Positions 5,200 through 15,216 of a stretch of DNA of 39,706 bases are shown in pieces (the first letter of the stretch is position 1; each line of letters opens with the position of its first letter). This DNA comes from Candidatus Bathyarchaeota archaeon. GTDB lineage: Archaea > Thermoproteota > Bathyarchaeia > Bathyarchaeales > DTEX01. The notes beneath the pieces are model-generated. The model was not told where the DNA came from and searched no databases. It saw nothing but the letters and a program-made list of their open reading frames with translations. Location of the stretch: the NCBI GenBank assembly GCA_018396995.1, contig JAGTQB010000012.1, forward strand, positions 1-39,706, given 5' to 3'. The position numbers were made by a program, and so were the translations under genes.

Positions 5200-7194
5200 A
5201 TGAATGAAATGAGTAGCTTCGACATAGCTGCTGTTACAGCAGAGCTCAATAAAATTATTAGAGGCTCTCGAATAAATAAGATTTACCAGGTAGATCCAAG
5301 AACTTTGTTGATTAAGCTCCGTGGTCAAGGTGAGACTTTCAACCTTTTGATAGAGGCTGGTAGGAGAATTCACATAACAGTCTATGAGGTTGAGAAGACC
5401 AAGAAGCCGCCTAGCTTTTGCATGGCCCTCAGAAAATATTTGGAGAACGGTGTTATTGAGGATATCTACCAACATGATTTTGAACGAATAGTTGAGATAC
5501 AAATTAGATGCGGGGGACAGAAATATAAGCTTATAGCAGAGATTTTTAAGAGGGGAAACATTATACTTGTTGACTCAGAGAACAAGATATTACATGCGCT
5601 TTCTTATCAAAGGATGAAAGATAGGAATATTATACGTGGCGAAACATATAAGCACCCGCCCCAAAGGGGGTTAGATCCTGGAAAAGTGGGGCCAGAAGAT
5701 CTTTATAGGCTCAGAGATTTCGGTGAGATAGAAGCTGTCAAAGGGCTAACGAGACTCCTAGGAATAAGCGGCTCCTATGCCGAAGAGATCCTTTTTAGGG
5801 CTGGCATTAATAAGACTAAACAATGCTCATCACTAAGTGATGAAGAAGTAAAAGCATTATTCAACAGCATGAGTAGAATACTACACGAGATTAAAGCTGG
5901 TAATTATGAGCCATGTATAATCGTTGATGAGAATGGAGACTGGGTTGGTGCGGCGCCCTTCATGTTAAAGAAGTATTCAGCCTACAACATTATTAGGATG
6001 GAGACATTTAACAGGGCTCTTGATGAATATTATGCAAGGACTATATCCCAAGAGAGAGCTAGAACTCTTGAGGAGAAAGCTAAGCAGGAGATAACTAGAC
6101 TGGAGAAGGTTCTTGATGAACAAAAAAGAAAACTTGAGGAACTTGAAGAAAAGGCTCACGCCTACCGCCAGATTGGGGATATAATTTACAGTCACTTACA
6201 TGAACTCAACTCGTTGATAGAAAGGATTATGCATGAGAAGAGGAGTGGAAAGGAGTGGAAAGATATCATTGCGGGATTACTTAGAGAGAAGGAAGATGGT
6301 ATAACTCCCTCCACGTACTTCATGTCTCTGGATCCGAATACATTAACACTTAAGGTCTCAGTTGAAGGACAATCGTTCAACCTAAATCTCAAGGCGCACG
6401 CCCAAGATGAAGCCAACAAATATTATGAGGGGGCTAAGAAAGTTGAAGAAAAAATTAAGGGAGTAAGGAGGGCTATTGAGGAGACTATTAAGAAGATTGA
6501 GGAGATTAGGGCTGAGACAATTGAAAGCATTGAGGAGTCGCCTCCATTAAAGCCAGCTAGGAAGAAAGAATGGTATGAAAAATTCCGGTGGTTCTACTCC
6601 TCCGAGGGCTTCCTTGTTATAGGCGGGAGGGATGCGTCAACAAATGAGACGCTAATACGCAAGTACATGGAGGACCATGACATAGTCTTCCATGCAGATG
6701 TCCCGGGATCGCCATTCACCTTAATTAAAACTTATGGGAAAGAGCCGGGTGAGGAAACAATGTTTGAGGCTGCGCAATTTACGGCATCATACTCCCGGGC
6801 GTGGAGGGAGAAGTTTAGGGCGATAGATGTTTATTGGGTTAAGCCGGAGCAGGTCAGCAAGACGCCGCCCTCAGGACAGTATTTACCGATGGGATCCTTC
6901 ATGATATATGGGGCCAGAAACTACGTTAAGAATGTTCCTCTGGAGGTGGCTATAGGCGTGAAGATGAAAAACGGCGAGCTAAAGATTATTGGCGGACCCT
7001 TAAGCGCCATCTCAAAACAGACAAAAATCTATGTGAGAATAGTTCCTGGGAACATGACCAGTGGGAAACTGGCTAAAATCATTAGGGGGAAATTGGCCAG
7101 CATGGTTCCCCCAGAGGAGCGTAAAACGATCCTAAGAATACCGCTAGAGGATATTCAAGCATTCATACCCCTAGGTCATGGAGAAATCGCTTAA
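5200..7194 (+). CDS. rqcH: RqcH / NEMF-Rqc2 homologue (NFACT ribosome-quality-control factor)
   Basis: A 664-residue NFACT protein. The order is NFACT-N (1-260), a helical linker, a coiled coil (about 285-330, rich in E/K/R, and again near 410-445), and the C-terminal NFACT-R domain starting near 455 (WYEKFRWFYSSEGFLVIGGRDASTNE). These proteins bind 60S/50S subunits with stalled peptidyl-tRNA and add C-terminal alanine or CAT tails. The tRNA-contact pair is usually Asp-Arg in a DRIV motif; here it is Glu95-Arg96 (DFERIVEI). ATG 5209 is an equally good start. A TTTAATAT element around 5168-5176 sits 25-30 bases upstream, inside the first codons of the divergent membrane gene. Confidence 0.92.
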   Translation: MNEMSSFDIAAVTAELNKIIRGSRINKIYQVDPRTLLIKLRGQGETFNLLIEAGRRIHITVYEVEKTKKPPSFCMALRKYLENGVIEDIYQHDFERIVEIQIRCGGQKYKLIAEIFKRGNIILVDSENKILHALSYQRMKDRNIIRGETYKHPPQRGLDPGKVGPEDLYRLRDFGEIEAVKGLTRLLGISGSYAEEILFRAGINKTKQCSSLSDEEVKALFNSMSRILHEIKAGNYEPCIIVDENGDWVGAAPFMLKKYSAYNIIRMETFNRALDEYYARTISQERARTLEEKAKQEITRLEKVLDEQKRKLEELEEKAHAYRQIGDIIYSHLHELNSLIERIMHEKRSGKEWKDIIAGLLREKEDGITPSTYFMSLDPNTLTLKVSVEGQSFNLNLKAHAQDEANKYYEGAKKVEEKIKGVRRAIEETIKKIEEIRAETIESIEESPPLKPARKKEWYEKFRWFYSSEGFLVIGGRDASTNETLIRKYMEDHDIVFHADVPGSPFTLIKTYGKEPGEETMFEAAQFTASYSRAWREKFRAIDVYWVKPEQVSKTPPSGQYLPMGSFMIYGARNYVKNVPLEVAIGVKMKNGELKIIGGPLSAISKQTKIYVRIVPGNMTSGKLAKIIRGKLASMVPPEERKTILRIPLEDIQAFIPLGHGEIA

Positions 7195-11917: not shown

Positions 11918-12310
11918 ATGCAAAGAGTTATATTAGATACAAACTTCCTGCTACTTCCACTACAATTTAAGATAGACATATTTGCCGAGATAGAGAGACT
12001 TATTGGGAAGTTTGAGCCAATCGTTTTATCTACGACGCTTAATGAGCTTAAAAAACTTGTAGGTTCTAGGTCCGTTAAGATTAGCAGATTAGCGCTGTCG
12101 GCTATGGAGATTGTTAAGAAGTGTAGGATTATAGAAGTAGATGTTAAGCCGGAGGAGAACTACGATGACGTGATATTACGCATTGCAAAGGAAAACAATT
12201 ATGTAGTCGCAACTAATGATAGGCTCCTTAGGAGAAAATTAAGGAAAGCGGGTATAACGACCATATTTCTTAGGCAGAGGGCTTATTTAGACATAGAGGG
12301 ACACACGTAG
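11918..12310 (+). CDS. PIN-domain nuclease, archaeal Fcf1/Utp24-VapC9 type
   Basis: A 130-residue single PIN domain. The acidic residues expected for metal-dependent RNA cleavage are visible: Asp7 in VILDTNFLL, Glu in LNELKKL, Asp in NYDDVIL and Asp in VATNDRLLRRKLRKAG. The C-terminus RKLRKAGITTIFLRQRAYL is typical of the archaeal relatives of Fcf1/Utp24, which are thought to act in ribosomal RNA maturation rather than as toxins. No antitoxin gene sits next to it, supporting the housekeeping reading. It follows pdxA by four bases. Confidence 0.85.
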   Translation: MQRVILDTNFLLLPLQFKIDIFAEIERLIGKFEPIVLSTTLNELKKLVGSRSVKISRLALSAMEIVKKCRIIEVDVKPEENYDDVILRIAKENNYVVATNDRLLRRKLRKAGITTIFLRQRAYLDIEGHT

Positions 12311-12345
12311 AGGAAAGCACTGAAAAACAAGATGACAGAAAAATG

Positions 12346-12366
12346 TTTTAAAGGAAAAATTTTAGG
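12346..12366 (-). terminator. T-tracts after the 43-aa acidic gene
   Basis: Read on the minus strand, the segment after the TAG at 12404 contains several runs of four to five T (rc of the A-runs near 12346-12362). These would serve as a T-tract terminator for the small acidic gene. The same bases are A-rich on the plus strand, so they cannot terminate the PIN gene. Confidence 0.35.
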
Positions 12367-12403
12367 GGTCTCTTTTATAATGGGAGGAGGGGAAATTTTG
12401 GGG

Positions 12404-12535
12404 CTACCACTCTTCCTCTTCTTCCTCCCACTCTTCCTCCTCTTCCCACTCTTCCTCCTCGCCCCAATCCTCCCATTCCTCTTCTTCTTCCTCTTCTTCC
12501 TCCTCCACCTTAGGCGGTGTCTTCTTTCTTGACAT
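12404..12535 (-). CDS. 43-aa tryptophan/glutamate-repeat acidic microprotein (not described to my knowledge)
   Basis: ATG 12535 to TAG 12404. The peptide has a basic, proline-containing head (MSRKKTPPKV), then ten Glu, then WEDWG, and then blocks EEEEW, EEEEEW and EEEEEEW to the end. Trp is at 21, 24, 30, 36 and 43; about 28 of 43 residues are acidic. GGTGA lies four bases before ATG, and TTTATTTAA (rc of 12572-12580) is about 40 bases upstream, predicting a start of transcription near 12550. T-tracts follow the stop. Acidic peptides with spaced Trp occur as protein-binding tails or DNA mimics (eukaryotic DSS1/Sem1 binds RPA and the proteasome this way), but no homology is claimed. It stands alone in an AT-rich gap. 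The opposite strand reads as a low-complexity Leu/Phe frame without SD. Confidence 0.65.
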   Translation of the reverse strand: MSRKKTPPKVEEEEEEEEEEWEDWGEEEEWEEEEEWEEEEEEW

Positions 12536-12556
12536 TATCTCACCAGCCGAGATAAT
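12534..12556 (-). promoter_or_regulatory. 8-bp perfect inverted repeat covering SD and start of the acidic microprotein
   Basis: The plus strand reads ATTATCTC, a 7-base loop ACCAGCC, then GAGATAAT: eight perfect pairs. On the minus-strand transcript the first two bases of the AUG and the purines behind the SD lie in the stem, and GGTG is at the loop edge. As RNA the hairpin could hide the ribosome site. As DNA the repeat spans the predicted transcription start and could be a repressor operator. Both readings are inference from the sequence. Confidence 0.55.
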
Positions 12557-12571: not shown

Positions 12572-12580
12572 TTAAATAAA
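12572..12580 (-). promoter_or_regulatory. TATA element for the acidic microprotein
   Basis: On the minus strand the sequence reads GGTTTATTTAAC, a TATA-like box. Its centre is about 26 bases from position 12550, which would give a short leader carrying the GGTGA SD. Assigned by position and composition. Confidence 0.4.
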
Positions 12581-12795
12581 CCTTACCTAAAAATTCTAAA
12601 AACAAGAGAACAAATAAGTTGATTATAAATTAAGAAATAAAAGCCAAATTTTCCAAAAAAACAAAAATTTATAGATATTTTTTAAAAATATATCATTAAA
12701 GTTGTTTTTTATGAAAAATGCTTTAAGTTCATTATGGAAATTCTTAACTTAAGTAGCCAAGTTTTATGATTTAAGCGTTACTGTGATTTTATTCA
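12581..12795. other. AT-rich intergenic spacer, no gene seen
   Basis: Strongly AT-rich, without a convincing frame on either strand. On the minus strand it contains T-runs (rc of the A7 at 12654-12661) that can terminate the Ogg2 transcript, and further TATA-like stretches (rc of about 12621-12632). I see no tRNA-like cloverleaf or conserved RNA box. Confidence 0.4.
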
Positions 12796-13455
12796 TTACT
12801 TTAAGACCTTCCCGGTTCTTATATACCAGAGGTATAAATCCAATTCGCCTAAAGACAGGTTAACCATTCGGGCTAAATCGCCAAACAGATTCTCAATCTC
12901 CAAATATTTAAGCCTAGATAACCTCTTTGGCTTTTCAATTAATCCATGTTCTGTCAATATGCTAAGTATATGACGGTCTATAATAGCAACGTTCATGAAA
13001 CCTATATTTCTTAGGAAGTGGCTCGCCTCCTTATAGCCAAGGCCCTTAATGTTTCTTACAAGCCACTCCCTCAGCAATCTCTCATCAGAAACGTTCTTTA
13101 GGAGCGCTTCCAAATGTGGAATATCTCTTCTTGCCTCAACAATGTACTTTGCCCTCGAATTAGGATACCTATGGCCAAGAGATCTCAGCTTCTCAGCAAG
13201 CTCGTGCTCCGGCATAAATAGGAAACCGTTGTTTATTTCTAGTTGCATTTTTATAGCTTTCTCCGCACTGAAATTAGCTGTCAATATACAGAAACACAAT
13301 TCCTTAAAGATTTCATTAATAGGCTTAGTTCCATTCTTTTTAAACTCTCCAACCCTTTCATCAATCACCTTCCCAATAGCGCTACCCTTAAGCGGTTCAA
13401 TCAGAGAAGCAAGCCTACGTAGACCATCTGCTCTCGAATTATTTTTAGGAAACAT
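12796..13455 (-). CDS. ogg: 8-oxoguanine DNA glycosylase/AP lyase, archaeal Ogg2 family
   Basis: A helix-hairpin-helix GPD-type glycosylase. The hairpin reads NIKGLGYKEASHFLRNIG, with the Schiff-base Lys142 in GYKEA and the catalytic Asp160 in IIDRHIL, 18 residues apart as in Methanocaldococcus Ogg. It excises 8-oxoguanine opposite C and nicks the strand. The protein ends in ELDLYLWYIRTGKVLK, the usual C-terminus of this subfamily. I prefer ATG 13455 (219 aa, AGGCGAG upstream). A TTG at 13509 would add 18 residues and overlap the preceding gene by 17 bases. It follows the 61-aa gene on the same strand. Confidence 0.9.
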   Translation of the reverse strand: MFPKNNSRADGLRRLASLIEPLKGSAIGKVIDERVGEFKKNGTKPINEIFKELCFCILTANFSAEKAIKMQLEINNGFLFMPEHELAEKLRSLGHRYPNSRAKYIVEARRDIPHLEALLKNVSDERLLREWLVRNIKGLGYKEASHFLRNIGFMNVAIIDRHILSILTEHGLIEKPKRLSRLKYLEIENLFGDLARMVNLSLGELDLYLWYIRTGKVLK

Positions 13456-13492
13456 AAGCAACTCGCCTTTTATACTAGCATAATCCTCCTTG

Positions 13493-13678
13493 TCACTTTT
13501 TCTGGCCAATTATTTGGAAGGTAACTATAAATCTTTCCTCCAGCTCCTCAATCTTTATAATTTCGGTTACTAAACCCATACCTTCAAGCAAAAACTTGTA
13601 ATCTTCAAAGTAGTCATAGAAGCCACAAGTGTAGCAGAAAGAGCCAGTAAACTCGATCTTAAATATGTCGCCAGCCAT
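13493..13678 (-). CDS. Uncharacterised 61-aa protein upstream of ogg
   Basis: A short protein starting MAGDIFKIEF with one CxxC pair (Cys15, Cys18 in FCYTCGF), a middle of aromatic/acidic residues and a C-terminal beta-rich RFIVTFQIIGQKK. A single CxxC is not enough for a zinc ribbon unless it dimerises. It may be co-transcribed with ogg, which starts within or just after its 3' end. An imperfect palindrome lies directly before its ATG. No function can be assigned. Confidence 0.65.
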   Translation of the reverse strand: MAGDIFKIEFTGSFCYTCGFYDYFEDYKFLLEGMGLVTEIIKIEELEERFIVTFQIIGQKK

Positions 13679-13781: not shown

Positions 13782-13925
13782 TTATTCTTCTGCTATGATT
13801 AGTGCATAGACTTCTTTTCCGTGGAGATGTTTTATCTTCTCTTTGTCTTTGCCAAGCGGGTAGAGGACGTAGTCCCCTCTCCTGTACTTTATGATGCTGC
13901 ATCTAACAATCTCGATTCTAGCCAT
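13782..13925 (-). CDS. 47-aa protein divergent from tnpB, probable cassette partner
   Basis: ATG 13925 to TAA 13782. The sequence starts MARIEIVRCSIIKYRRGDYV and continues YPLGKDKEKIKHLHGKEV to a beta-strand tail YALIIAEE. The strand-strand-loop-strand pattern resembles small AbrB-like or transposon-associated DNA-binding proteins, but I cannot place it in a named family. AGGTGGAT is five bases before ATG, and the TTATAA box at 13959-13964 gives a predicted transcript start near 13936, so expression looks well specified. It is absent from most annotations by size alone. A repressor or antitoxin-like role towards tnpB is possible; that is inference. Confidence 0.65.
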   Translation of the reverse strand: MARIEIVRCSIIKYRRGDYVLYPLGKDKEKIKHLHGKEVYALIIAEE

Positions 13926-13956
13926 ATATCCACCTATACAGATACTGGAGAGAAAA

Positions 13957-13965
13957 AATTATAAG
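13957..13965. promoter_or_regulatory. Palindromic TATA box shared by tnpB and the 47-aa gene
   Basis: AATTATAAG contains TTATAA, its own reverse complement. It lies about 25 bases before the tnpB ATG (leaderless start on +) and about 37 bases before the ATG of the 47-aa gene (leader of about 11 bases holding AGGTGGAT on -). It is the only TATA-like element in the 61-base gap. Confidence 0.5.
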
Positions 13966-13986
13966 CTCTTCTCTACAGTTCTAGAT

Positions 13987-15216
13987 ATGGTGAGCTACTC
14001 GGTGAAGGGTGGAGGGCTTGTTGAGGCGCTTAAGATGAGGGCTCTCCCCGAGGGTAGCAATGATTATCTTGCTCTACTCGAGTTCCTGAAACTCTATCGT
14101 GATGCTGTTCAACTAGTGGTAAACAAGTTGTGGAGTTTAAACGAAATACCTTCAATCAAAACTCTACACAAGATGTCCTACTCAGAACTTAAGAGATATG
14201 GTTTTAGAGCACACCACGTGAAGCAGGTATATACCTACGCTAAAACTATCGTTAGAGCTAGTAAGCGGAATGGTGGAAAGAAGCCAGTTCTAAGGAGGTT
14301 AACAGCTAGAGTAGATAGATATGATTACAGGCTTGACCTAGAGAATAGAACACTTATCTTGAGGATACATGATGGTAGAGTGGTTATATTAAAACTATTA
14401 ACATCTATTGAGAGGATAGAGAAGTTTAGGGGTTGGAGCAACTACGAGATAGCTATAAAGGTTATCGAGAATGAGGTCTATGTAGCGGTATACTTCAGGA
14501 GAATAGTTAAATCAAGGAAAACCAAAACCATCACAACCATCGACGTTAACTTCGACAACGTTACTTTAGCCGTTTTCACATCTAGTGGGAAGCTGTTGAA
14601 GCTGAAGCGGTACAAAACACCTCTCAGGAAAATCTTAACCCACAGGATATGGATCGAGAGAATACAGAAAAGGTACTCTAAATCTTGGGGATTTGTTAAA
14701 GGAGTTAGAGAAGTCATCGAGAAGCACGGTGATAGGATGAAGAGCATAGCTTTGGACTACGCACATAAGATAGGTGATAGAGTAGCGGAGATAGCCAATG
14801 AACACAACTCAACCATAGTTCTCGAAAACCTAAACAAACTTAGGGATAGAGCCAACAGCAATAGCTTATTCAACAAAAAGCTATCACTATGGTTCTACAG
14901 AAAAATACAGTTCACTATAAACTATGAAGCTCTTGAGAGAAGACTAGAGGTTAGCTACATTAACCCAATGAAAACATCATCAACATGCCCAAGGTGTGAA
15001 AGCAGATTAAAAGATAATGGCGATAGAGTACTGAAGTGCAGTAAATGTGATTTCACAGGAGATAGAGACGTGGTTGCATGCATAAACCTATTCTACAGAT
15101 ACTCAAGATGTGGGGTGCCTAGGGTCGCCCTGAACGCCCCCAAGGGTGATGCAAACCTAAGACCAATGCAGGGGAAAAGAGATGAGGCAATGAAATCAAC
15201 TTATATCAGAAGCTGA
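13987..15216 (+). mobile_element. tnpB: TnpB, RNA-guided nuclease of an IS605/IS1341-type element
   Basis: 409 residues from ATG 13987; a longer frame opens at 13891 but lacks family similarity before this point. The RuvC-like catalytic residues are all present: Asp186 (TTIDVNFD), Glu280 (IVLENL) and Asp361 (GDRDVVACINL). The zinc ribbon has CPRC (334-337) and CSKC (351-354). The tail GVPRVALNAPKGDANLRPMQG is the conserved C-terminal stretch whose DNA overlaps the guide (omega) RNA scaffold in related elements. TnpB cuts DNA next to a short TAM under RNA guidance and helps keep the element. No TnpA (Y1 transposase) is present, so the copy needs one in trans. It appears intact. Confidence 0.93.

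Follow-up and report, generated by a model that had tools for sequence, protein, structure and literature searches.

ABCE1 (Rli1) is the ribosome-splitting ATPase that acts after each round of protein synthesis, and it is active in both archaea and eukaryotes. Archaea, to our knowledge, have no eIF3 and hence no eIF3b, the subunit that structural work has defined as the partner of the eIF3j acidic Trp motif. Among small acidic proteins, DSS1/Sem1 is disordered and carries Trp in an acidic context. The eukaryotic factor Hcr1/eIF3j binds ABCE1/Rli1 directly through the ABC2 domain, and deletion of hcr1 is suppressed by overexpression of RLI1 (PMC3836723). In human eIF3j, Trp52 of the N-terminal acidic motif (NTA) fills a hydrophobic pocket of eIF3b, with acidic flanks raising the affinity; in yeast, wild-type growth needs no more of Hcr1 than the half with the acidic Trp motif (PMC2824034). 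Yeast NTA mutants deficient in eIF3 binding have no termination read-through defect (PMC3836723), which counsels caution about a role of this motif at ABCE1 itself. On the archaeal side, PMC6791870, which cites an aP1–ABCE1 crystal structure, describes the C-terminus of the stalk protein aP1 as docking on translation factors including the ATPase aABCE1.

A Glu/Trp microprotein gene in the window

The locus studied here lies within the window, by which we mean the whole analysed stretch of 39,706 nucleotides, and comprises the following features.

11918..12310, plus strand: PIN-domain (PIN_9/Fcf1-like) gene, convergent neighbour (Pfam PF18477, PF04900)
12340..12359, minus strand: T-tracts 3' of the microgene stop, possible archaeal oligo-T terminator (from sequence)
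12404..12535, minus strand: CDS of a 43-aa Glu/Trp microprotein, ATG to TAG (translation, genus conservation, third-position synonymous pattern)
12540..12544, minus strand: SD-like GGTGA, 5-9 nt before the ATG (from sequence, kept in genus copies)
12572..12584, minus strand: promoter-like element, purine-rich BRE-like AAGG and then a TATA box (from sequence)
12796..13509, minus strand: archaeal 8-oxoguanine DNA glycosylase (Ogg-HhH), upstream neighbour (Pfam PF22175, E 6.6e-62)

Translation of the minus strand at 12404-12535 gave MSRKKTPPKVEEEEEEEEEEWEDWGEEEEWEEEEEWEEEEEEW followed by a stop, and bore out an earlier note on this DNA, which had read a 43-residue frame here from ATG to TAG with Trp at positions 21, 24, 30, 36 and 43, the last being the end of the protein. 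The acidic residues, put by that note at about 28 of 43, number 27. The SD and TATA box that it had placed before the ATG were found at 12540-12544 and 12572-12580 (TATA box TTTATTTAA, centre ~40 nt before the ATG), and both are kept in same-genus relatives, which agrees with its proposal that the microgene probably forms its own transcription unit on the minus strand. T-rich DNA also lies 3' of the microgene in relatives, where it is not alignable base by base. The assembly of the source genome (1.46 Mb, 42 contigs) contains a single match to the Trp/acidic pattern described below.

An inverted repeat (ATTATCTC...GAGATAAT) occupies the leader and start of the microgene at 12533-12555 on the minus strand and could hide the SD. 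It is strong in the window and in L057 (family codes f1, f2 etc., locus codes L and genome codes G are working labels), and most relatives show it weakly or not at all. The idea of a conserved hairpin covering the SD was rejected: the stem in the window has 9 bp, but folding in the relatives is not consistently more stable than that of shuffled sequence.

The Ogg-HhH neighbour recurs in 8 loci of the genus and is confined to it; it is not part of the ABCE1 system proposed below. In other members of the genus the microgene lies apart from the PIN gene, and another gene is convergent. About 5 kb from the microgene, at 5200-7194 on the plus strand, the window also holds an NFACT gene (aRqcH-type ribosome quality control), a family whose functional connection with the subunits split by ABCE1 is established. 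The window further encodes, at 13891-15216 on the plus strand, a TnpB-type transposon protein of 441 aa that has a Cas12f1-like TNB domain.

Conservation among same-genus copies

The genus comparison covered ten microgene copies from nine genomes, the window copy included. All ten keep an MS[RK][RK]K head and the Trp blocks and end in Trp; upstream, each has TTTATTT 36-46 nt and GGTG(A) 9-14 nt before the ATG. Over all pairs of the ten copies, codon differences were 495 synonymous vs 186 non-synonymous (73% synonymous; expected share 28%, calculated from all transitions), and 639 of the 854 base differences fell at codon position 3; the pairs are non-independent and the poly-Glu alignment is loose, so these counts are descriptive, with an unambiguous direction. 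The earlier note had proposed looking in relatives for a frame, Trp blocks, ATG and SD that are kept while Glu codons swap between GAA and GAG, and this is what they display. It had also named the opposing Leu/Phe frame as a possible target of selection. The plus-strand ORF opposite the microgene (12332-12532, 66 aa) is not favoured in this way: since the plus-strand reading of relatives alternates and swaps Leu and Phe and its stop positions shift from one relative to another, it is not the conserved frame. The window microORF is almost certainly a real gene.

One assembly, G003, contains two microgene loci (C59 and C6; L054 and L053) with differing Trp spacing and a common convergent neighbour, either a duplication or mixed strains.

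A microprotein family across the phylum

A strict DNA pattern, defined as three Trp codons among Glu/Asp codons with no demand for a terminal Trp, matched 101 of the 398 genomes analysed in the phylum and, when reversed, 0, which places the microORF pattern far beyond chance. The matched loci are short ORFs, nearly all free-standing, ranging from ~20 aa (MREEEEEWEEEEEEEWEEEEW) to ~70 aa. Variants missed by the pattern were found directly upstream of ABCE1 (e.g. MEEEWEDIEEEEWEDIEEEEDWEEDEW), and a looser, tail-anchored pattern added members in further families. A C-terminal Trp closes 90 of 103 distinct tails and an EEEEW end is present in 66 of 103, a minority of the 103 coming from the looser search, which did require a terminal Trp. 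Because the strict pattern made no such demand, the terminal Trp is a property of the family. Successive large hydrophobics in the tails are mostly 3-8 residues apart or doubled. The strict pattern had zero matches in the large family f19 and in f51, where the factor would be dispensable or replaced.

Searches with four family members against Pfam and NCBIfam at E up to 10, and against PDB sequences, gave no match, including none to the eIF3j family (Pfam, NCBIfam) or to the stalk protein and DSS1/Sem1 families (Pfam), a test limited by low complexity. A literature search returned no paper on small Glu/Trp proteins of archaea or on a microprotein linked to ABCE1. Orthology between families was judged by single-locus occurrence, shared tail and synteny, with no alignment score for such near-homopolymeric sequence; since low complexity prevents a formal between-family homology test, some members could be convergent. 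The window ORF fits the family in being free-standing and Trp-ended, with 27/43 acidic residues, 5 Trp and one match in its genome. We regard these ORFs as an unannotated microprotein family across an archaeal phylum, new in that no library or paper searched contained a match, and the earlier note was right that gene finders would miss such a gene.

Two further ORFs have similar tails. At L081 (G373, minus strand, 1447-1701), away from ABCE1, a Trp/Glu tail is joined to a small zinc-ribbon-like Cys-rich head (MPICDICGMEVASVHQCSQCGANFCDECGD...), which is either a fusion or convergence. At L227, on an IMG/VR contig (5392-5727, plus strand), a 111-aa ORF ends in a similar acidic Trp tail, MWEDEEEIDWDDDDW. 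The scan of viral contigs matched two contigs and gave nothing pointing to a viral family.

Linkage to ABCE1

Neighbour clustering and locus reading revealed a recurrent same-strand downstream neighbour starting MTRIAVLDxDKCKPKxC..., the iron-sulphur head of ABCE1, and the neighbour was identified as ABCE1 by NCBIfam NF009945 (855 bits). ABCE1 was located in 371 of the 398 genomes. Linkage was counted over the 54 genomes, from 21 families, listed with both microORF and ABCE1 positions. In 30 of the 54 (14 of 21 families) ABCE1 follows the microORF on the same strand at a distance of 45-531 nt, and in 5 at 600-1500 nt; the microORF is divergent from ABCE1 within 1.5 kb in another 5 and elsewhere in 14. 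Within 1.5 kb of ABCE1 the counts are accordingly 35/54 on the same strand and 40/54 on either strand, and the expectation for a random place, by a rough null, is ~1 in 3000. The linkage is far beyond chance, even counted by families.

Reading the loci directly placed the microORF 27-69 nt upstream of ABCE1 in f22, and the pair was also read in f7, f10, f11, f20, f24, f64, f13 and f15. A TFS-like zinc-ribbon gene stands between the two in loci of f44, f45 and f67. The remaining neighbourhood differs between families (asparaginase-like in f2/f8, an ABC-transporter ATPase in f22, dehydrogenase-like in f28), and only ABCE1 is shared so widely as a neighbour in the loci examined. Since the other neighbours vary by family, the microORF–ABCE1 pair does not simply belong to a frozen block. 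In ABCE1-linked families an SD-like sequence precedes the start of several of the microORFs read, and ABCE1 starts separately after a T-rich stretch. The DNA from the microORF stop to the start of ABCE1 has oligo-T stretches in several loci (L065, L082, L090, L097, L174), possibly as an attenuator setting the ratio of both products.

The ABCE1 loci of the window family itself (L199-L202, L202 from the source genome) have no microORF. In this family the microORF adjoins the 8-oxoguanine glycosylase gene or, in other genera, lies near hypothetical genes. Family f4 offers an intermediate: at L062 an asparaginase-like gene, the microORF and ABCE1 fall within ~1.5 kb with two genes between, and in the other f4 genome ABCE1 is on a different contig from the microORF. 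The microORF is likewise not beside ABCE1 in f1, f25, f38, f40 and f50, nor, by the looser search, in f26. It is thus not always in cis upstream of a regulated gene, the window-family copy being unlinked, and because it persists as a gene apart from ABCE1, under its own promoter, a trans-acting protein is favoured over a cis leader.

Proposed role and rival explanations

Given this linkage, there is about an even chance that the microprotein is a disordered trans-acting accessory factor of ABCE1 and ribosome recycling. We infer that it is translated in vivo and disordered, and that it would bind ABCE1 and affect recycling. The Trp spaced within acidic residues, together with the C-terminal Trp, would insert into basic-ringed hydrophobic pockets of ABCE1 or of the ABCE1-bound small subunit, and such docking may tune the recruitment, ATPase cycle or release of ABCE1. 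This docking mode borrows, by analogy, from known acidic Trp motifs, and the contact would be of the type that eIF3j/Hcr1 forms with its own eukaryotic partner. Because the acidic/hydrophobic tail of the aP1 stalk docks on aABCE1, an acidic tail with a bulky end residue is also plausible, by the same kind of analogy, as an ABCE1 ligand or stalk mimic. The earlier note had suggested that the protein binds through spaced Trp and acidic residues, which was right in kind as short-motif docking; its link to DSS1/Sem1, SSB and the proteasome went unsupported, the recurrent partner gene across families being ABCE1. Ribosome binding came closest among its suggestions.

Several other explanations were weighed against such a factor. 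The microORF might instead encode a partner of another information-processing machine, such as TFS/RNA polymerase; alternatively, its product might serve basic ribosomal or nucleic-acid-binding proteins as a general chaperone or charge mimic. Its place near ABCE1 would then reflect a shared translation/transcription superoperon. The TFS-like gene immediately downstream in several families, the highly acidic make-up and the unlinked copies near varied genes speak for this, but many families have ABCE1 immediately after the microORF and no TFS-like gene between, the pair persists while the remaining neighbours vary, and a generic acidic chaperone would need neither Trp at regular spacing nor a Trp at its C-terminus; we consider it unlikely. 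A cis leader peptide (uORF), whose acid-rich nascent chain would destabilise or slow ribosomes, report recycling capacity and set transcription or translation of the downstream ABCE1, appears quite improbable. It would account for a microORF 27-134 nt upstream of ABCE1 in many families with oligo-T stretches between, and N-terminal acidic runs do abort translation in bacteria and yeast (PMC9718836). However, in the window family and others the microORF stands by itself away from ABCE1 and under its own promoter, and no such ORF occurs in their ABCE1 leader; elsewhere a TFS-like gene separates the two or the microORF is divergent from ABCE1; and the conserved C-terminal Trp is superfluous for an N-terminal destabilisation signal.

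The similar make-up, with spaced Trp in acid, and the 8-oxoguanine glycosylase upstream in the window genus could suggest a DSS1/Sem1-like or SSB-tail-like protein binding single-strand-DNA-binding proteins or the proteasome. This we hold to be very unlikely, as the glycosylase neighbour is limited to that genus, repair, SSB and proteasome genes are not recurrent neighbours among the loci read, and Pfam, searched up to E 10, matched no relevant family, DSS1/Sem1 included. The last reading, a purine-rich low-complexity repeat open by accident, draws on the low complexity, the near-pure GAR/TGG codons and the tendency of all opposite frames to stay open. It is scarcely credible against the synonymous third-position pattern, the conserved TATA/SD and head, the single locus, the phylum-wide spread, the terminal Trp and the ABCE1 linkage; the codon pattern and this linkage effectively exclude it.

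The precise role of ABCE1 in initiation is still to be elucidated, according to a paper on the archaeal post-splitting complex (PMC7196836), and a small conserved gene adjacent to ABCE1 bears on how the release of ABCE1 is triggered or its cycle adjusted in archaea without eIF3. The microprotein is easily made as a peptide, so a role at ABCE1 is directly testable. The family also illustrates that length and complexity filters in annotation can miss a phylum-wide gene family, and that strong selection is possible on near-homopolymeric proteins.

Comparison with known systems

DSS1/Sem1 shares the small, Trp-in-acid design, but the microprotein sequence is much simpler and no proteasome, RPA or recombination gene family is linked to it among the loci read. 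Acid-rich leader peptides, which act by intrinsic ribosome destabilisation, resemble the microORF as short acidic ORFs upstream of a gene for a translation-linked factor, and differ from it in that the microORF is also kept unlinked with its own promoter. The archaeal stalk protein aP1, like the microprotein, has an acidic run followed by bulky hydrophobics at its extreme C-terminus, whereas its tail is SEEEALAGLSALFG-like, belongs to a ribosomal protein, and has one motif and no Trp repeats.

As in the microprotein, whose disorder is predicted, eIF3j/Hcr1 is disordered and sets Trp in short acidic runs (W37, D38 and E40-43 in yeast; W52 in human); the Trp-centred acidic motif common to both is a resemblance only, with a tail spacing of mostly 3-8 residues in the microproteins. 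The tie of eIF3j/Hcr1 to ABCE1/Rli1 is functional and physical; for the microprotein a strong gene linkage to ABCE1 was observed. Whereas eIF3j is a protein of ~25-30 kDa (PMC5737393), the archaeal ORF is in essence the motif repeated, over 20-70 aa and with a C-terminal Trp. Tentatively, the microprotein may be a dedicated partner of ABCE1 in ribosome recycling and, at a recycling-initiation junction older than eIF3, represent a minimal archaeal equivalent, or the evolutionary precursor, of the acidic Trp motif in eIF3j/Hcr1.
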